Source: Mariprofundus ferrooxydans PV-1 | Lineage (GTDB): Bacteria; Pseudomonadota; Zetaproteobacteria; Mariprofundales; Mariprofundaceae | Assembly: GCF_000153765.1 (NCBI RefSeq) | Contig: NZ_DS022295.1 | Span: forward strand, 566,887-630,886 | Direction of reading: 5' to 3' | Length of the DNA: 64,000 nt | In this document: positions 1,629-21,005 of the stretch, in pieces | Position numbering within the stretch: the first letter of the stretch is position 1 | Layout of the letters: each line of letters begins with the position of its first letter | The notes under the pieces: model-generated | Seen by the model: the letters and a program-made list of their open reading frames with translations, nothing else | What the model was told of the DNA's origin: nothing | Databases searched by the model: none | Program-made: the position numbers and the translations under genes

Positions 1629-2588
1629 ATGGCACGCAAACCAAGGATTCATGTTTCAGGCGGATTGTATCATGTCATGCTTCGAGGCAATGGGGGACAG
1701 GATATATTCTTTGCCCCGGATGATCGTTACCAGCTGTATTTTCTGATCCAGGAGGGGATAGAGCGATTCGGCCATCGGGTGCATGCATTTTGCCTGATGA
1801 ATAATCATATCCACCTGGCAGTTCAAGTGTCCGATATTCCTCTTTCCAGAGTTATGCAAAACCTGGCTTTTCGCTATACACTATGGATCAATCGCCGTTA
1901 TCAGCGCATCGGGCATCTGTTTCAGGGGCGGTATAAGGCATTGCTGGTGGACGGGGATAGTTATCTGTTGGAGTTGGTCCGCTATATCCACCTTAATCCT
2001 GTTCGTTCGGAACTGGTTTCACGACCTGAGGATTACGAATGGAGTGGGCATCGGGCTTATATCGGTGATGACAATATTCCATGGCTGACATGTGATTCGG
2101 TCCTGGCTCAATTCGGCAGCACGATACATGTCGCAAGAGGTCGATATGTCAGTTTTGTCATGGATGGAGTGAGTGGAACACATCGTCCGGAATTTCATCA
2201 GGGCGATGATGACTCACGTATTCTTGGCGAAGATCTTTTTGTATCTCGGGTTATGACTCAGACCGAGGAACCTGCGCCAATCAGAATTTCTCTGGATGAG
2301 TTGCTTATCTCTGTAGCTCAGGCCTTTGGCATTGAAGATACAGACCTCTCCGGGCCGAGCAGGAAAAGGAGTTTTGCCGAGGCGCGCGGAGTGGCTGCAT
2401 GGCTTGCATCGGAGTTGGGTCTGCACCCATTAGCGGATTTGGCCCGTCGACTGAATCGTGATCCATCAGCATTAAGTTTGTTAACGAAAAAAACCAGAGA
2501 GCGCATGAAAAATGATCCCGAGTTTGAGTTGAAAGTAACCCGGGTAAAATTAAATCTGAGTTCAAACAACTCAATAACTCATGCCTGA
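1629..2588 (+). CDS. REP-associated tyrosine transposase (RAYT, IS200-like Y1 family)
   Basis: A 319-aa single-strand-DNA transposase-like protein. The HUH metal site is His60-x-His62 in NNHIHLAV, the likely nucleophile is Tyr119 in VRYIHLNP, and the family motif GHLFQGRYKA is at 95-104. Residues about 225-300 look like the DnaA C-terminal helix-turn-helix domain that some RAYT proteins carry. RAYTs are usually domesticated and act on REP repeats rather than moving as free elements. The gene lies inside perfect 25-bp inverted repeats, and the right repeat contains its last codons and stop. No strong ribosome site precedes the ATG, so expression may be low. Confidence 0.9.
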   Translation: MARKPRIHVSGGLYHVMLRGNGGQDIFFAPDDRYQLYFLIQEGIERFGHRVHAFCLMNNHIHLAVQVSDIPLSRVMQNLAFRYTLWINRRYQRIGHLFQGRYKALLVDGDSYLLELVRYIHLNPVRSELVSRPEDYEWSGHRAYIGDDNIPWLTCDSVLAQFGSTIHVARGRYVSFVMDGVSGTHRPEFHQGDDDSRILGEDLFVSRVMTQTEEPAPIRISLDELLISVAQAFGIEDTDLSGPSRKRSFAEARGVAAWLASELGLHPLADLARRLNRDPSALSLLTKKTRERMKNDPEFELKVTRVKLNLSSNNSITHA

Positions 2589-5162: not shown

Positions 5163-5255
5163 TTGTTGGTCTTTATGATAAACAGTACTACAATAGGGAC
5201 CAACACTGTTGTGCCGTCATATTGAACATATAGACCAACACCAAAAGAACCAACA
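5163..5255. repeat. Four copies of a (A)GACCAACA / AGAACCAACA motif upstream of the arm-domain gene
   Basis: The copies are TTGTTGGTCT at 5163-5172 (reverse), GGGACCAACA at 5196-5205, AGACCAACA at 5232-5240 and AGAACCAACA at 5246-5255. The first two face each other with starts 33 bp apart. Together with the matching copies at 5979-6050 they look like binding sites of one DNA-binding protein, most simply the product of the gene they surround. Confidence 0.6.
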
Positions 5256-5271
5256 AGCGGAGCAGTTCAGC

Positions 5272-5958
5272 ATGGCTTTATCTGATGAACAAGTGAATGA
5301 AGCGTCGATTCCCGAGGGTAAGAAGCAGCTGAAAATCAGCGATGGCGGGGGACTCTACCTGCTGGTAAAGCCATCCGGTCGCTACTGGAAGCTTGCTTAT
5401 CGCTTCGACGGGAAACAGAAGTCGCTGGCACTGGGGGTATATCCGGCTGTGAGCCTTGATGATGCACGCCAGAAGCGGGAGCAGGCCAAGTCTCTGCTGG
5501 CAGATGGCGTTGATCCGGGGGTTGTGAAACAACAGCAGAAACGCCGTGCGGTGGCGACCGAAACAGTGACAACTCAAACGTCTGTGGAGTCGCCAGAGCC
5601 AGAGCCGGTTCATGCAACCGGCCAGCTCGAGCTGGCACTGCATCAGCAGCCGGTTGCAACTCTCAGCCGTGAGGATCAGGCCCGTATAGAAGATCGGCGA
5701 CTGCGCATTCTGCAACTGCTGGTAAAGGAGAATGCATATACGGTGAACGAGCAGTTATTACAGCAATCGCTCGATGCACTCGGCCATAAAGTCTCATCTG
5801 ACCGGCTGCGTACCGATCTGGCATGGTTATATGAGCAACAGGTGCTACTGCTCGAAACCGACGGGCTGTGGATCGCTCTGTTAACCAGAAACGGCCTGGA
5901 AGTGGCCGAGGGCCGCATGTGGATACCCGGCATTAAACGTCCTGAACCACTGGCATAG
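5272..5958 (+). CDS. Integrase-type arm-binding domain fused to a phage-type winged helix, no recombinase domain
   Basis: A 228-aa protein. Residues 1-90 match the arm DNA-binding domain (DUF4102 type) at the N terminus of P4-like tyrosine integrases: the LKISDGGGLYLLV pattern, a YRFDGKQKSLALGVYP strand-turn and the DDARQKREQAK helix. The catalytic tyrosine-recombinase domain that should follow is absent. Instead a Pro/Thr/Glu-rich linker (about 95-125) leads to residues 140-226, which resemble the small winged-helix protein of Mu-like phages (VpaChn25_0724 type), with DRLRTDLAWLYEQ and the ending GLEVAEGRMWIPGIKRPEP. It is therefore probably a DNA-binding regulator or nucleoid factor, not a recombinase. 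Matching 10-mers flank the gene on both sides. The ribosome site (GCGGAG) is weak. The function is inferred. Confidence 0.7.
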   Translation: MALSDEQVNEASIPEGKKQLKISDGGGLYLLVKPSGRYWKLAYRFDGKQKSLALGVYPAVSLDDARQKREQAKSLLADGVDPGVVKQQQKRRAVATETVTTQTSVESPEPEPVHATGQLELALHQQPVATLSREDQARIEDRRLRILQLLVKENAYTVNEQLLQQSLDALGHKVSSDRLRTDLAWLYEQQVLLLETDGLWIALLTRNGLEVAEGRMWIPGIKRPEPLA

Positions 5959-5978
5959 TCGGTTTATCATGTTTCACA

Positions 5979-6050
5979 TGTTGGTTCTTATTGTAGGGTG
6001 AAGTGAAAAAGAACCAACACGGCGTACTATACATCTCTTTTAGACCGACA
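5979..6050. repeat. Three further copies of the AGAACCAACA motif downstream of the arm-domain gene
   Basis: TGTTGGTTCT at 5979-5988 (reverse) and AGAACCAACA at 6010-6019 form an inverted pair with starts 31 bp apart, and the variant AGACCGACA follows at 6042-6050. The 6010 and 5979 copies equal the 5246-5255 copy exactly. The region also separates the gene from recG, so binding here could affect recG expression. Confidence 0.6.
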
Positions 6051-8153: not shown

Positions 8154-9432
8154 CACTGTTGTCCGGTTAAGCATTGATGAGGCACATTTGTCGCTGATTT
8201 ATGGCGAATCGTCGCTTTGGCGGCGGTGGGGAATCAGCCAGCAATTCGAGCAAGTTTCGTCGCTGCATGAGGTTGACGGAAACGAGTCTCGCCAGTTGTT
8301 GCATGGATCGGCTTGCAGGCAGGATCCTTCTTGCCATGTGCAGCAGCAGATAGGCGATCATGGCAATGATAATCTGGATTTTGACAGCGTTCTCGGATGT
8401 GCCGATGAAGCGTTTGATCTTCAGGTTCTGTTTAATCCACCTGAAGAACAGTTCAATTTGCCAGCGCTGTTTGTACAGGGCTGCGATGGCTCCGGCGGAG
8501 CGCTTCAGGTCATTGGTGATAAAGACAAGCTTCTTGCCATCTTCCTCATGCACGAAGCAGATGCGGCGCAGGATGGTCGGACATTCCTTCCTGCCTTTGG
8601 CCGATGACAGACGGATATGCTGGTCTTCCAATACACCGTCATCTGATACAGGGAGCGTTGCCACTACCTCGAATTCCGCGTTGCGCTTCATGCGGCTGAC
8701 GAAGCGGATATCCCTTTGTGTCAGGTCATGGAACCATGCGTAATCGTTGTAGGCCCTGTCGAACACATAAGTGGCGCCGGGCAACAGGGGCATGTGCTCC
8801 GCAGCCTTCTTGTCATGCTTTTTGGCTGCGGTGATGGAAAAGAAGGTGGGAACCTGCGCATCAGGGTCATACACCGTATGCACCTTCACGCCCGATTTGC
8901 CGGTGCGGAAGCTCGCCCATTCAAACTGATGCTTGCACAGGTCAATCGTCGTGGAGTCAATCAGCCGAACGGCATCCTTGCGGTGGATGCCCTTGCCGCG
9001 AAACTGATGCAAAAGCCAGTAAAACAGCTCCAGATACATGCCCGCAGAGCGCTTCACATTGGCATCAGCAAGCGTGGAACGCCTCACCGAGCCTGCTCCC
9101 AGGTGATAGTGCCTGCTGGCGTGACTTTCCCATGCCGAAACCACATCCCGCAGAGACTGCCGGGAGCAAAGCTGCGCATAGAGCATGACGCAAAACTGCG
9201 TCCAGCAGGACAAACTGCGGATACGCCTGTCACCATCATAACGCCTGACAACCTCCTCAAAACGGTGACGCGGAATCACTCTGAGCAATTGATGAAAAAC
9301 CGTGTTAGCATGCTTCATGGTCTGAATTCTCCGGGGCGTAGATTTGCTGTCTCAATCACAATAAATCTACCATATCCCTTGGGAATTCAGACCTTTTTTT
9401 ATCCCTCCGGATTCCTTAACCGGACAGCCGTG
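8154..9432 (-). mobile_element. Complete IS4-family insertion sequence, 1,279 bp
   Basis: The element has terminal inverted repeats at 8154-8171 and 9415-9432 that match at 16 of 18 positions, the inner 12 (TGTCCGGTTAAG) being perfect. It holds one full transposase gene on the minus strand, whose stop lies inside the left repeat. A 9-bp duplication flanks it. Intact ends, an intact gene and a perfect duplication suggest recent arrival. It landed between recG and arsS, about 66 bp before the arsS start, and may alter arsS transcription. Confidence 0.9.
8167..9318 (-). CDS. IS4-family DDE transposase
   Basis: A 383-aa transposase. The DDE triad is Asp121 (LIDSTTID), Asp187 (YVFDRAYNDY) and Glu289, within the IS4 signature Tyr282-Arg285-Glu289-Lys296 (YKQRWQIELFFRWIK). 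The N-terminal part (HxLLRVIPRHRFEEVVRRY) is the DUF4372-like domain of the ISPepr1 type subgroup. The frame is uninterrupted. The gene fills nearly the whole element, and the about 100 bp between its start and the right end hold the likely promoter. Confidence 0.95.
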   Translation of the reverse strand: MKHANTVFHQLLRVIPRHRFEEVVRRYDGDRRIRSLSCWTQFCVMLYAQLCSRQSLRDVVSAWESHASRHYHLGAGSVRRSTLADANVKRSAGMYLELFYWLLHQFRGKGIHRKDAVRLIDSTTIDLCKHQFEWASFRTGKSGVKVHTVYDPDAQVPTFFSITAAKKHDKKAAEHMPLLPGATYVFDRAYNDYAWFHDLTQRDIRFVSRMKRNAEFEVVATLPVSDDGVLEDQHIRLSSAKGRKECPTILRRICFVHEEDGKKLVFITNDLKRSAGAIAALYKQRWQIELFFRWIKQNLKIKRFIGTSENAVKIQIIIAMIAYLLLHMARRILPASRSMQQLARLVSVNLMQRRNLLELLADSPPPPKRRFAINQRQMCLINA

Positions 9433-9506: not shown

Positions 9507-10472
9507 ATGCATGCCACATTACCCTTACTGACAGAGAGTGACTTTCCGCCCCTTCATCGGGGCAGGCTGGAGACGCTGCAGGTCAATCTCGGTTATCTGT
9601 GCAATCAGAGTTGTTTGCATTGCCACGTCAATGCAGGACCGCGGCGAACCGAAATCATGAGTGAGCAGACAGTACAGCAGGTGCTGGATTTTCTGGCGAC
9701 ACAGCAGATTACAACGCTCGATCTGACCGGCGGGGCACCGGAGATGAATCCTCACTTCCGCTATTTGATTGGCGAGGCAACAAAACTGGGTGTGCGGATT
9801 ATTGATCGTTGCAACCTGACGATTCTGGAAGAGCCGGGCTATGAGGATATGGCTGCCTTTCTTGCACAACACCGGGTTGAGGTGGTTGCATCATTGCCCT
9901 GCTACCTCAGTGATAATGTCGATGCCCAGCGCGGCAAGGGTGTATTCGAGACCAGTATAGCGGCACTGAAACAACTCAATGCCCTGGGCTATGGAATCGA
10001 AGGCTCCGGGCTGACGTTGACGCTGGTGTATAACCCGCAGGGAGCCTGCCTGCCGCCATCACAAGACGAGCTGCAAGCCGCTTACAAGCGAGAGCTGCGC
10101 CTGCGTTACGGCATTGAGTTCAACCAGCTGTTTACGATTACCAATATGCCGATAAAACGTTTTGGTAGCACATTGATTTCCCGTGGTGAATTCGCCAGTT
10201 ACATGCAGTTACTTAAAGAAGCATATAGTGAGGAAAACCTGTCCGGAGTCATGTGCAGAAGCCTGATCAGCGTCGATTGGCAGGGGTTTGTATATGACTG
10301 TGACTTCAACCAGATGCTGGAGCTGCCGCTTGCAGGCAAACATGGTAATAGTACGCATTTGTCTGAATTGATGCATGAGGATATGCAGGGGCGGCCGATT
10401 GTGGTGATGGATCATTGTTATGGCTGTACAGCAGGGCAGGGATCGAGTTGCGGAGGTGCACTCGATGCATAG
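9507..10472 (+). CDS. arsS: Arsenosugar biosynthesis radical SAM protein ArsS
   Basis: A 321-aa radical SAM enzyme of the ArsS family, which acts with ArsM to build the 5'-deoxyadenosyl-arsenic precursor of arsenosugars. The 4Fe-4S/SAM cluster motif is Cys32-x3-Cys36-x2-Cys39 (CNQSCLHC), followed by the TGGAPEMNP segment. The C-terminal domain (DUF3641-like) ends with CYGCTAGQGSSCGG, which may hold a further metal site. AGGAG at 9493-9497 and GAGG nearer the ATG give the ribosome site. arsM follows after 81 bp on the same strand, as in other arsenosugar loci. Confidence 0.9.
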   Translation: MHATLPLLTESDFPPLHRGRLETLQVNLGYLCNQSCLHCHVNAGPRRTEIMSEQTVQQVLDFLATQQITTLDLTGGAPEMNPHFRYLIGEATKLGVRIIDRCNLTILEEPGYEDMAAFLAQHRVEVVASLPCYLSDNVDAQRGKGVFETSIAALKQLNALGYGIEGSGLTLTLVYNPQGACLPPSQDELQAAYKRELRLRYGIEFNQLFTITNMPIKRFGSTLISRGEFASYMQLLKEAYSEENLSGVMCRSLISVDWQGFVYDCDFNQMLELPLAGKHGNSTHLSELMHEDMQGRPIVVMDHCYGCTAGQGSSCGGALDA

Positions 10473-10553
10473 AGCAGAATGGCTTTCTGATGATAGAGTA
10501 TGCACCGTGCTGCAAAACGATGAGAGACGATTGGAAAACAAGGAAGGTATTGC

Positions 10554-11366
10554 ATGAGTGTTCAGGCAGACAATGTGCGTCAGCACGTACGTAAATCATA
10601 TGCCGAAGTAGCCGAGGCCAGCAATGAAGGCGGCTGCTGTGGCGAGGTATCCAGCTGCTGCGGTGTGTCGGATGATGCGGCAATCAATACGCTGATCTCC
10701 ACCCGTCTGGGCTATTCGGAAGATGACCTTACCCGTGTACCGGAAGGCGCCGATATGGGATTGGGCTGCGGTAACCCGCGCGCAATTGCCAGCCTGAAGG
10801 CGGGTGAAGTGGTTATCGATCTCGGTAGCGGCGGCGGCTTCGATGCATTTTTGTCTGCGCATGAAGTAGGCGAGAGCGGTCACGTGATCGGTATCGATAT
10901 GACACCGACGATGCTATCGAAGGCTCGGGCCAATGCGGAGAAGGGACGCTTTACCAATGTGGAGTTCCGACTGGGCGAGATCGAACATCTGCCGGTTGCC
11001 GATAACACAGCCGATATCATTATCTCCAACTGTGTGATTAATCTCTCACCGGACAAACAGCAGGTTTTCCGGGATGCGTTCCGGGCACTGAAACCGGGAG
11101 GAAGACTGGCTATATCCGATGTAGTTGCTACAGCCGTGATGCCGGATGAGATGAAAAATGATCCGATTCTGCATGCCGGTTGTATGGCCGGCGCTTCGCT
11201 GATCGAAGAGCTGGAGTCGATGATGACGGAAGCCGGATTCACGGAGATTCGTATCGAGCCGAAAGATGAGTCCCGCACATTTATCCGTGACTGGGCTCCG
11301 GGGCGGGGCGTTGAGGATTATGTTGTGTCGGCCTACATCGAAGCGGTAAAGCCGGGCTGCTGCTAA
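10554..11366 (+). CDS. arsM: Arsenite S-adenosylmethionine methyltransferase ArsM
   Basis: This enzyme methylates trivalent arsenic with SAM. The 270-aa protein has the SAM site VIDLGSGGGFDAF (about 87-99) and the three conserved arsenic-binding cysteines Cys72 (GLGCGNP), Cys160 (ISNCVINLSP) and Cys210 (HAGCMAGA). Extra vicinal pairs Cys28-29 and Cys35-36 and a terminal Cys-Cys may help capture arsenite. AAGGAAGG before the ATG is a good ribosome site. It is presumably co-transcribed with arsS. Its stop codon overlaps that of the convergent gene at 11363. No ArsR-type regulator is present nearby. Confidence 0.93.
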   Translation: MSVQADNVRQHVRKSYAEVAEASNEGGCCGEVSSCCGVSDDAAINTLISTRLGYSEDDLTRVPEGADMGLGCGNPRAIASLKAGEVVIDLGSGGGFDAFLSAHEVGESGHVIGIDMTPTMLSKARANAEKGRFTNVEFRLGEIEHLPVADNTADIIISNCVINLSPDKQQVFRDAFRALKPGGRLAISDVVATAVMPDEMKNDPILHAGCMAGASLIEELESMMTEAGFTEIRIEPKDESRTFIRDWAPGRGVEDYVVSAYIEAVKPGCC

Positions 11367-14402: not shown

Positions 14403-14549
14403 GTCGAAGTCCTTTCCTGTCGGTCGTGCCGCCCTTTAGGGGCGACGCCGTAATTACACACCAGTCACTGTGATCCACCAGTGGCGACACTATCACCACT
14501 GATATTGATTTTCGAGCATGATGCCGCCAGTTTGTCATTTGCCGCTTGC

Positions 14550-16555: not shown

Positions 16556-19500
16556 TTAGAAAACCACCATCCCGTTTACGGCAGCCATCGGCAGTGACTT
16601 TGGCGCCTTGGCCCGGGGAACCAGATATTCAGCTTCAATCTCCTCTGTCGTAATCGTTGTCGCCCGTTTCTTCGTCCCTACCCTGATCCCCTCTTTCAGC
16701 GTAATCGGCGCTGCATCGCGCAGCCCTTTGGAACCTTTCTTCATTGCCACTGCAGTTAAACCTTTGCCTTTGCCCAGCAGAGGAAACTCATCTTTCAGGA
16801 TAACGGCCATACGTCCATAGGAGTCGATGAATGCAAATGCGTCATGGGCGGCTTCAATCTCCCTGATACAGAGCAGCCTGGAGCTTGCCGGGAAGTTGAT
16901 GAATGCCTTTCCTTTCTTGTTGGCTGATACCATATCACTGCCCATGGCACGGAATGCATGGCCGGCGGTGGTTGCCACGAGGTATTCGGCATCCGGTTTA
17001 ACCATGACCATGCGGGTCGGTGCTTCATTGATGCTGAATACGAAGTGTTTGGATACAGGCTCTCCATTACCGCGACCGCTCGGCAGATCTGCGGCAAGCA
17101 TGCTGAATGCACGCCCTGTCCTGCCGATCAGAATCAGCTGATCGGTGGTGTGGCCGGCGGCCGAGTCGAGCAATTTGTCGCTCTCCCTGAACCTGACGGA
17201 TGACACATCAATGCTTGAGCCGCGCATACCCTTGAGCCAGCCCTGTTTGGAGAGGATGGCGGTCACCGGCTCGCGCGATACGATCTGCTCGCGACTCATC
17301 GGCCTGGATTTTGGCGCATCCGGATCAACAATCGTCCTGCGCTCATCGCCGAATTTCTTCAGTGCATCCCTTAACTCGCCGGTAATATGTTTCCAGCGAT
17401 GCGCATCGTCATCGAGCACCTGATGCAGCCCGGCCGCTTCTTCACTCAGGCGGTCGTGCTCTCCCTGTAGCTTCATCTGCTCCAGCTTGCGCAGCTGGGA
17501 GAGGCGAATGGCAAGAATGGCATCGGTCTGGATTTCAGTGAGTGAATATTTCTCCATGATGATCGGACGCGGTTCATCGTTATCCAGAATGATCTCGACA
17601 ATTTCCCGAATATTCGGATATGCCAGCAGCAAGCCGTCGAGTATATGCAGTCGGGCTGTGATTTCGGCCAGGCGGACCTTTGCCCGGCTCATCACCAGCT
17701 CCTGTCTGTAGTCGAGGAATGAGCGGATCATTTTGTCGAGCGGAAACAGGCTCGGTAAGCGGTAGCGCTCGCCATTGGGCGTATCATGCCACTTCTCCAG
17801 CGCATAGGTGGCATACTGGATCGTGACCTGCAGATTGGTGGCCGAGAAGAGATGCAGCATGATCTGTTCCGGGTCGAGGTTTCTCGATTTGGGAAACAGG
17901 ACGATACGGATGCCATCTTCCGCGCTGGATTCATCGCGCAGATCATCAATCATCGGCAACTGACGTGATTCGGCGATGGTTTTATCCGAAATACGAGCCC
18001 CCATCTCAATCAGCAGCGGCGATTTCTCAATACCGTAAGGGATCTCGGTTACTACAATCTGCCACAATCCCTTCGGCAGGGTCTCAACATGCCATTTGGA
18101 GCGTAGCAGCATTTTGCCGTAACCCTTGGCATACATCGCTTCGAGCTCTTCATGCGTATTGGCAATGATACCGCCGCCGGGAAAATCAGGTGCGGTGATA
18201 TGCTTGCGTACGTCGCGGAAGTCCGTGGGCGACTCCATTGCTCCTGTTCTGCCCCGCTTTTTCGCCAGCGCAATACAGGCGCCGAGCAGCTCCGTCAGAT
18301 TGTGGGACGGGATCTCTGTTTTAAAACCGACCGCCGGGTTGCCGGTGGACGAGTTCATCATCACCAGCGGAAACGGTGCGGGAAGCACCATCGGCTCCTT
18401 GTCCTGATCATCGTAGTTCGGCTGATACATGGTAATGCCGTCTTTCAGATCACCGGAGAGTATGGCTTCGGCAATGGGCGTCATACGCGCTTCGGTATAA
18501 CGCATGGCTGCTGCTGAATCACCGTCAATCGAGCCGAAGTTACCCTGCCCGTCAATCAGCGGATAGCGCATCACCCAGGGCTGGGCCATACGCACCATAG
18601 CGCCATAAACGGCAGAATCGCCGTGCGGATGATATTTACCGATCACGTCACCGACCACACGCGCGGATTTCTTGGTTTTGGTATTCGAGCGGAGCTTGAG
18701 CATCTCCATCGCATAGAGAATCCGCCTGTGCACCGGTTTCATGCCGTCCCGCACATCGGGAATCGCCCGATCGCCGACGACCTTCAGGCCATAACTGCGG
18801 TATAGCTCGCGGAATACCGTTTCAAACGGGGCAATGGTGTTATTCCCCGAATCGTAGGGCTTGAAGCAGGCCACTGCATCCTCGGCATCGTCTGTCACAT
18901 CAAACGGATCGGTGACGAATTCCGCGTCCTCAATCTCCTTGCCCATCAGCAGATCCCTGCGCTGGCCGGCATCATCGCCCATCAGCTTGGTCATCAGCGC
19001 ATCCATGCGCCGGGCATCTTCCGGACTGACCTGAACCAGTACCCGGTTTTCGTAATCCATACAGGTCTCTTTCAGCTCCGGCGGATTCATTTCGCCCAGA
19101 CCTTTATAGCGGATATATTCGATCTTCTTGCCCTCGGCCAGAGCCATGGCCTTCAGGCCGTCGAGTTCATCCTCGCTCTGTGCATAGTGTTTCTGTTTAC
19201 CGATCGTTACACCATAGAGTGGCGGTTGCACGATATAGACGCGCCCGGCCTCCACCATCGGCCGCATCTGTCGCCAGAAGAAGGTGAAGAGCAGCGTCTG
19301 GATATGCGAACCGTCGATATCCGCATCGGTCATCACGACGATTTTCCCGTATCGGCGCTTTTCGATATCGCAGTGCTCACCGATGCCGGTGCCGATAGCG
19401 GTAATCAGATCTGCGACCGCTTCACTGTTGCTGGCATCCTCTGATGTGACGCCCTCGCAGTTGAGGATTTTACCCTTTAGCGGGAAGATCGCCTGCAGAT

Positions 19501-20812
19501 CGCGGTCATTGGCCTGTTTGGCAGAGCCACCGGCAGAATCACCCTCCACCAGATAGAGTTCCGTATGCTCAATATCGTTGCTGCGACAATCGAGCAGCTT
19601 CCCGGGCAGCGGCGTGCGGCCGGTAAAGGTTTTGCGGTCTACCTTTTTTGCCTTGCCGTTTTCGGCTGCAGCGCGGGCGGCGGCCCTGTCGATAATAAGT
19701 TTCACCCAGGCATCGGAGAGCTCCGCATCCCGATTCAGCCAGAGCGTGGCCGAATCATGGATAACGCCGCCGACAAACTTGCTCGCCTCTGCCGATGTAA
19801 GCTCCTGCTTGGTCTGCCCCTTGAACGAGATATCCTGAATATAGACCGAAAGACCCAGCTGCGAATTTGCCATTACATCGGACGGCGCTATGCGAGTCGA
19901 TCTGCCGAGTGCTTTTTTCAACTCCGGCCGCATATCGATGTATTCGCGAACGGCCTTGATCAACCCTGCCTGGAAACCCTTTTCATGTGTGCCGCCCAGC
20001 GGCGTCGGGATCGTGTTGGCGTATGATCTGACGTAAACAGGGATCGCTTCTTCAAAGGAGGCAAAGTGCCAGTGCACCTTTTCCATATCGCCGAGCTGGC
20101 CGGTGAACTCGAAGACCGGGGTACCCTCCATCTGACTCGTCATAAACTCGGAGAGTCCGTTTTTGAAGCAGAAGCGCTCATCTGCAAGCCCCGGCGCCTT
20201 GAAGATCACCTCCAGCCCCGGAATAAGAATGGCTTTATCCATCGCCTGCTGGCGGACCTGCTGTACACGGAATTTGGGTGATTCGTAATATTTGGGGTTG
20301 GGAGAGAAGCGAATCTGTGTGCCGTGCGTGCGCGGACCGACCGTGCCGACCTGCTTAAGCTTGTCAACGGCGCGCCCATTCTCAAAGCGCATGGTAAACT
20401 CGCCGCCATCGCGTTTGACCGTCGCCTCCAACCATGATGAGAGTGCATTGGTCACCGTGATGCCAACACCGTGCAGGCCGCCGGAGACCTTGTAGGCATC
20501 GTGATCAAACTTGCCGCCTGCCTTGTCCTTGCTCAGAACCAGCTCAACCCCGGACATCCCGGCTGCATTCTCCTTGACCGGAATGCCCCGCCCGTTATCG
20601 GTAATGCTGATGACATTATCAGACTCGAGCTCCACAACAATCCGGCTGCAGAAACCACCTATGGCCTCATCGCCACAGTTATCGAGCACCTCCTGTGCTA
20701 TATGATGGCAGCCAAGCTCCTTGCTTGTGTCGGAATACATATTGGGACGCAACTGGATATGGGCGATACCGTCCAGGTCCTTGATCGAGTCAATATCGTA
20801 GTCTGCACTCAT
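16556..20812 (-). CDS. Fused DNA topoisomerase IV: ParE and ParC in one polypeptide
   Basis: A 1,418-aa type IIA topoisomerase with both subunits in one uninterrupted frame. The ParE part covers about 1-635: GHKL ATPase with catalytic Glu41, TDNGRGIPV (71-79), GGLHGVG (111-117), the QTK loop (333-335), then TOPRIM with EGDSAGG (423-429) and DADIDGS (496-502). A short acidic linker (about 636-660) leads into Par[12 protein letters not shown] (692-702), the [10 protein letters not shown] segment and the DNA-cleaving Tyr772 ([11 protein letters not shown]). A ParC-like C-terminal region follows; no gyrase box (QRRGGKG) is seen, so topoisomerase IV is more likely than gyrase. The start at 20812 has AAGGA upstream; a longer frame to 20881 lacks a ribosome site. 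Decatenation of sister chromosomes is the expected role. Confidence 0.9.
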
Positions 20813-21005
20813 AGATAGAGTTCCTTTTTTGTAGTTTTCTGCTTTTGTCATCTGCCGGCAGATCGAACAAAATGCATGCATTTCAAAGAAAGAGCGGGCG
20901 CTTAAAACAATGCATCGCTACGGCTGCACTAATGTACAACAAAAGTGCCCGATATTACAAAGAAAATTTATCCAATTTGATATCATCCCCCCCGTTAGCA
21001 GGCTG

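Follow-up and report, generated by a model that had tools for sequence, protein, structure and literature searches.

Tyrosine integrases of the P4 type, represented by the proteins of HAI7 (3JU0) and HPI (3JTZ) and presumably by IntS of ICEMlSymR7A (PMC11963761), combine a catalytic domain with an N-terminal arm-binding domain (PF13356). Upstream of the integrase gene lie ACCAACA sites, some direct and some inverted, one of them just before the start codon, and the core att site is usually found at a tRNA, together with a flanking element. Autorepression through arm sites is established for integrases in the case of intS of prophage KplE1, in which the arm-binding protein is expressed from a promoter that its own arm-type sites overlap (PMC2951348). 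The gp26 protein of phage Mu (phrog_436, NF050184) is a stand-alone protein encoded just before the terminase genes. MatP/matS and MaoP/maoS, finally, represent DNA-binding proteins that act in a special region of the chromosome (PMC3330122, PMC5023128), and maoP has its site beside its own gene.

The locus analysed here, in a 64 kb window (the whole stretch of DNA studied) at 566887-630886 of contig C3 of the Mariprofundus ferrooxydans PV-1 genome, combines features of these systems in a 228-residue fusion protein and its gene. The arm domain and the arrangement of upstream ACCAACA sites are shared with the P4-type integrases, from which the fusion differs in having a Mu gp26-type winged helix where the integrase has its catalytic domain, A or G where the integrases have T before ACCAACA, and a location near dif; reading of the sequence revealed neither a core att site at a tRNA nor the flanking element. 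The overlap of arm-type sites with a putative promoter would parallel KplE1 intS, which, however, has a working integrase and attL whereas the fusion has no recombinase, and whose arm sites share a TAAA motif as opposed to ACCAACA. The likeness to Mu gp26 involves the C-terminal ~90 residues. From the sequence comparisons made in this study, we give a chance of roughly three in four to the reading that the fusion is a domesticated, catalysis-less remnant of a P4-type integrase, repressing itself via its former arm sites. The gene product is thus probably a self-controlled DNA-binding protein recycled from mobile DNA. Our literature search for a fusion of arm domain and Mu gp26 found no report.

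The fusion protein and its distribution

Residues 3-89 of the protein constitute an integrase arm DNA-binding domain (PF13356, E=7.4e-24, 84.1 bits at a cut-off of 27). The protein matches PDB entry 3ju0 (E=3.9e-25) and likewise 3JTZ, and structural comparison of the arm domain with 3JU0 gives 55% identity. Residues ~136-226 form the winged helix, 47.8% identical to Mu gp26 (E=1e-14) and recognized by the NF050184 profile at 93.2 bits (cut-off 65); phrog_3423 and phrog_436 are both matched, the latter at 3.4e-28. Both this C-terminal domain and the linkage to dif were absent from the earlier note on this DNA. Domain searches revealed no tyrosine recombinase catalytic domain in the fusion protein or in any orthologue, each of which (~218-235 residues) has the same two domains. 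The MatP domain (PF06303) has no match in the fusion protein. The AlphaFold model comprises two folded domains and a linker (residues ~96-129, pLDDT below 50), with a domain-to-domain arrangement that is unreliable (pTM 0.46). Phages AchV4, PBC5 and S1 have arm-domain proteins that were considered as stand-alone forms; being integrase-sized, these were ruled out.

The full fusion is present in 16 of 78 Zetaproteobacteria genomes, 15 in the genus of the window and one (G025) in another genus. A search of 398 genomes from the phylum (E<=1e-38) found it nowhere outside the Zetaproteobacteria. The viral contigs examined contain no fusion, and have integrases or truncated arm-domain frames instead. 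Distances between the fusion proteins correlate with those of mazG (Mantel r 0.67, 0 of 2000 permutations), and descent of the fusion looks vertical from these sequences. In the same PV-1 genome, a gp26 homologue precedes a pair of frames that by eye appear terminase-like (contig C3, 460711-464022); the region resembles a portion of a Mu-like prophage, hence a donor kind of element is present.

The site array and the arm sites of integrases

Sites were scored with a position weight matrix of 15 columns, built from 110 sites beside the 16 orthologues (the window's own sites, 6 at most, included). The matrix was scanned over the 64 kb window, and exact and one-mismatch patterns over the genome. 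Exactly six strong matches were found in the window, all adjoining the fusion gene (Table 1), the best score outside the array being 11.0 and the maximum in the reversed-window control 12.0.

Table 1. Coordinates of the fusion gene and associated features in the 64 kb window
Feature	Position	Strand	Matrix 15-mer start	Bits	Remark
Putative weak promoter TTGGTC-17-TACAAT	5166..5194	+			By eye and from relatives; between sites 1 and 2
Site 1 AAAGACCAACA	5164..5174	-	5162	19.0	Overlaps putative -35 (5166-5171)
Site 2 AGGGACCAACA	5195..5205	+	5193	16.1	Right after -10, over expected transcription start
Site 3 ATAGACCAACA	5230..5240	+	5228	13.4	Weaker
Site 4, exact AAGAACCAACA	5245..5255	+	5243	23.7	Ends 16 bp 5' of start codon
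Fusion gene, 228 aa product	5272..5958	+			Arm domain, linker, Mu gp26-type winged helix
Site 5, exact AAGAACCAACA	5979..5989	-	5977	22.2	3' of gene
Site 6, exact AAGAACCAACA	6009..6019	+	6007	22.8	Forms inverted pair with site 5; recG 76 bp downstream
XerCD dif CGCATAATGGATATTATGTAAA	14605..14626	+			Single genome-wide match; 8.65 kb downstream of gene, directly before mazG

The 2.99 Mb genome contains exact AAGAACCAACA only three times, each time beside the fusion gene. Written as (A)AGAACCAACA, the motif has three exact copies, the only ones genome-wide, against none of the reversed 11-mer; GAACCAACA was observed 3 times for 0.46 expected, a count reached in no shuffle. One-mismatch copies of the 11-mer are scattered over the genome (26, compared to 33 for the reversed control). 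A genome-wide regulon is rejected on these counts: exact 11-mers are found at the gene only and one-mismatch copies are no commoner than the reversed control.

The earlier note had described seven phased copies, three of them exact and several ~31-35 bp apart, with inverted pairs flanking the gene on both sides. The exact copies and the pairs (5164-/5195+ and 5979-/6009+) stand, and so do copies 1-6 by the matrix; the seventh, at 6042, reads AGACCGACA (ACCGACA) and falls under the 3-bit local cut-off. Phasing has to be given up, since the spacings are 31, 35, 15 and 30 in the window and 12, 16, 19, 22-25, 29 and 33 in relatives, and a test of the site positions for 10-11 bp periodicity was negative (R 0.07-0.19).

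Sites are found beside the fusion gene in every carrier genome (16/16, with 4-11 sites each). At least three exact 11-mers are present at the gene in 13 of 15 relatives, near-matches taking their place in G047 (one exact copy) and G051 (none). Same-genus genomes lacking the fusion contain no exact AAGAACCAACA in seven cases out of eight and a single copy in the eighth. Motif and gene therefore co-occur, as the earlier note had proposed to check. The sites, mostly within 350 bp upstream, were kept even though the orthologous proteins are only 50-60% identical to that of the window. Within the genus, almost every genome with the gene has paired sites at it, and few other pairs are convincing. 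The site repeat is real, local and conserved.

Two side observations concern individual relatives. In G051 (locus L129, contig C117), a second close site pair at ~14487-14520, with 18-19 bits and ~2.8 kb before dif, possibly lies inside a coding region. In G063, the end of L133 and the contig L132 share a near-identical array and diverge after it, the gene being absent there in one of the two; the divergence may reflect strain mixture or an insertion.

The sites were compared with those of 67 ordinary integrases that have related arm domains and come from many Proteobacteria and phages. ACCAACA is present within 200 bp upstream of 53 of them, in 121 copies where 1.7 are expected, and TACCAAC is the most enriched 7-mer. 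The arm consensus published for IntS of ICEMlSymR7A, TGKTGGTATC, is the reverse complement of GATACCAMCA (PMC11963761), and Mesorhizobium integrases of the comparison set (e.g., L063 and L064) carry the same sites. Based on the upstream copies and the published consensus, the array is best read as arm-type sites. That the arm domain binds the flanking sites, as the earlier note had supposed, gains strong support from co-occurrence, conserved arrays and the integrase ACCAACA sites, and we regard binding to (A/G)ACCAACA as very likely on these comparative grounds.

The fusion sites are distinguished from those of the integrases by one base. Immediately 5' of ACCAACA, T is found in 114 of 121 integrase sites and in none of 100 fusion-array sites, which have A (84), G (15) or C (1). 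All 16 arm domains of the fusions group in a single clade (support 0.96), whose sister is a group of Zetaproteobacterial integrases (support 0.90) with mostly TACCAACA as upstream sites. In several of these integrases, L108 and similarly L119 among them, such sites occur at ~-88, -66 and -24 (positions of L108), close to the -85, -56 and -23 of the fusion sites in several relatives. Residue 40 is Lys in 16/16 fusions as opposed to Arg in 46/48 integrases; K40 together with K33 are candidate residues behind the change in the recognized base. As a separate observation, ACCAACATAAATACCAACA tandem sites occur in G054 (C1:127785-127803) and G056 (C36:107308-107326), where the G054 copy immediately precedes an ordinary integrase of that genome, the position that arm sites should have.

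Putative promoter and autoregulation

A generic promoter scanner called no promoter at the fusion gene. The predicted TTGGTC-17-TACAAT element and the leader following it are overlapped by sites of the array. G051 has the plan of the window, a weak promoter between two sites; many relatives have a TTGCCA-like/TACAAT-like pair with sites directly after it, and in most orthologues sites follow immediately on a -10-like box. A site starting ~23-35 bp 5' of the start codon is present in every orthologue.

The mechanism we propose is an extension of that of the full integrases. An arm-binding N-terminal domain and promoter-overlapping arm-type sites would have been kept from a P4-type tyrosine integrase, the catalytic part having been lost and a Mu gp26-type winged helix having come in its place. 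Occupancy of the sites over the -35/-10 elements, the transcription start and the ribosome-binding region would repress the gene's own promoter. Such repression via former arm sites appears probable from the site positions and the integrase analogy. More speculatively, the winged helix could contact a second DNA sequence or join neighbouring copies, and the array could then act as a nucleoprotein node anchored close to dif, in the region of the replication terminus.

Autoregulation alone may not explain the whole array. In G051 and G062, downstream sites are located between convergent genes, hence some sites of the arrays are no promoter operators. Pure autorepression, if the sites exist only at the protein's own gene, leaves the protein without another target. 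It is an incomplete story for a repressor, and the winged helix and the terminus location thus merit attention.

The dif setting and competing explanations

The terminus setting of the window is evident from a sign change of the GC skew at dif and from the KOPS motif GGGNAGGG, which occurs 4 times on the plus and once on the minus strand to the left of dif, and 0 and 11 times, respectively, to the right. Wherever any dif-like site was found (two mismatches allowed), there is one per genome; across the class, mazG comes after it in almost every region examined, the upstream neighbours being variable. Gene and dif share a contig in 12 genomes, and in 12/12 the gene lies to the same side of dif and is oriented towards it. 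The distances (208, 227, 245, 253, 263, 574 and 741 bp; ~2.0, 8.7, 9.0, 9.5 and 27 kb) are below 10 kb in 11 genomes and below 0.75 kb in seven; for the fusion gene, dif is context and not a proven part of the unit. In the complete genomes G046 and G048 (dnaA at ~1.2 kb), the fusion gene is located at 50.8% and 48.5% of the chromosome from dnaA. For G056, G062, G063 and G025, no linkage to dif is seen on the contigs available.

The position suggests a terminus role. By analogy with MatP/matS or MaoP/maoS, the array could serve as a nucleoprotein anchor close to dif that constrains or positions the terminus, with autoregulation secondary. The consistent orientation and proximity to dif, the mid-chromosome location in the two complete genomes and the sites between convergent genes are consistent with it; neither MatP nor Tus (the protein of the Tus-Ter fork trap) was detected in the class, and maoS is the precedent for a single-locus organizer beside its own gene (PMC5023128). 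However, the gene-dif distance spans 0.2 to 27 kb, the gene is not close to dif on the available contigs of G056, G062 and G063, and eight same-genus genomes do without it. Furthermore, the fusion protein is unrelated to MatP, and neither the exact genome scan nor the matrix scan of the 64 kb showed a dispersed, matS-like set of sites. Because descent looks vertical, the shared near-dif position represents one origin rather than twelve independent events and is perhaps inherited, not selected; for this reason we consider the terminus organizer rather unlikely. A related idea has the integrase turned into a terminus-anchoring protein that retains an integrase's two-handed plan and links the terminus with other DNA or with further copies of the protein, the arm domain on the array near dif serving as the first hand and the swapped-in Mu winged helix as the second. 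This would be a doubtful proposition. A search for papers on terminus biology of the lineage found nothing.

Use of the array as an accessory sequence for XerCD recombination at dif, with the protein as accessory factor as at plasmid cer, would accord with the gap of 208-263 bp between gene and dif in five genomes. In those same genomes, however, the sites precede the gene and are ~0.9-1.2 kb away from dif, compared to an action range of ~200 bp for the accessory sequences of cer. Given also the 9-27 kb distances in other genomes and the many relatives having dif and lacking the gene, such a function is very improbable. The repeats might instead act as RNA, the inverted pair forming a leader hairpin over the ribosome-binding site. 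The hairpin is strong in three relatives (z -3.3 to -5.0), but its absence in the window and in L012 (z 0.5 and -0.9) rules it out as a common feature, and it would leave unexplained the direct repeats, the downstream copies and the fact that the sites are identical to arm sites of integrases; we give it very little credence. A mobile element still present, the gene being cargo or the decayed integrase of an integrative or Xer-exploiting element at dif, is barely credible: both domains derive from mobile DNA and IS and transposase genes are nearby, yet elements exploiting XerCD have two flanking dif sites where each genome here has one at two mismatches, every orthologue lacks the recombinase domain, and in 16 genomes the frame has stayed open and conserved, its descent resembling that of mazG.

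Of the surroundings invoked in the earlier note, recG indeed adjoins the array. A DnaA box is present as one exact copy (4747), but none is found upstream of other orthologues, so that boxes as part of the unit are unsupported; they look incidental. The term partition-like does not hold either, as plasmid partition units have a centromere array with an adjacent ParA/ParM ATPase and the fusion gene, with lpxK, RNase H and recG for neighbours, adjoins no such partner.

Several genes of the window deserve mention in their own right. At 1629-2588 (+), ~2 kb from the exact DnaA box, an IS200-like Y1 transposase carries a fused C-terminal DNA-binding domain of DnaA. Downstream of recG, a DDE transposase of the DUF4372 type (8167-9318, -) represents an insertion that accounts for part of the gene-dif separation in PV-1. 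The stretch 9507-11366 (+) encodes a radical SAM/DUF3641 protein and then a methyltransferase, a pair that appears to be arsenic-related. On the far side of dif, at a distance of ~2 kb, a single 1441-residue protein (16556-20881, -) has a ParE-like part and then a ParC part, thus both topoisomerase IV subunits in one chain.

Lastly, the idea of a self-contained DNA-organizing unit put forward in the earlier note is possible, and it becomes more interesting given the location by the terminus and dif. The preferred reading, an integrase remnant controlling itself, would make the locus a clean example of how an integrase is domesticated: catalysis was lost, and the protein domain stayed together with its DNA sites. 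A visible change in the recognition sequence sets the fusion apart from integrases of the same lineage, providing a ready-made system for how arm domains choose their sites. The locus also places a dedicated DNA-binding protein near dif in a group of bacteria where searches detected no MatP and no Tus.
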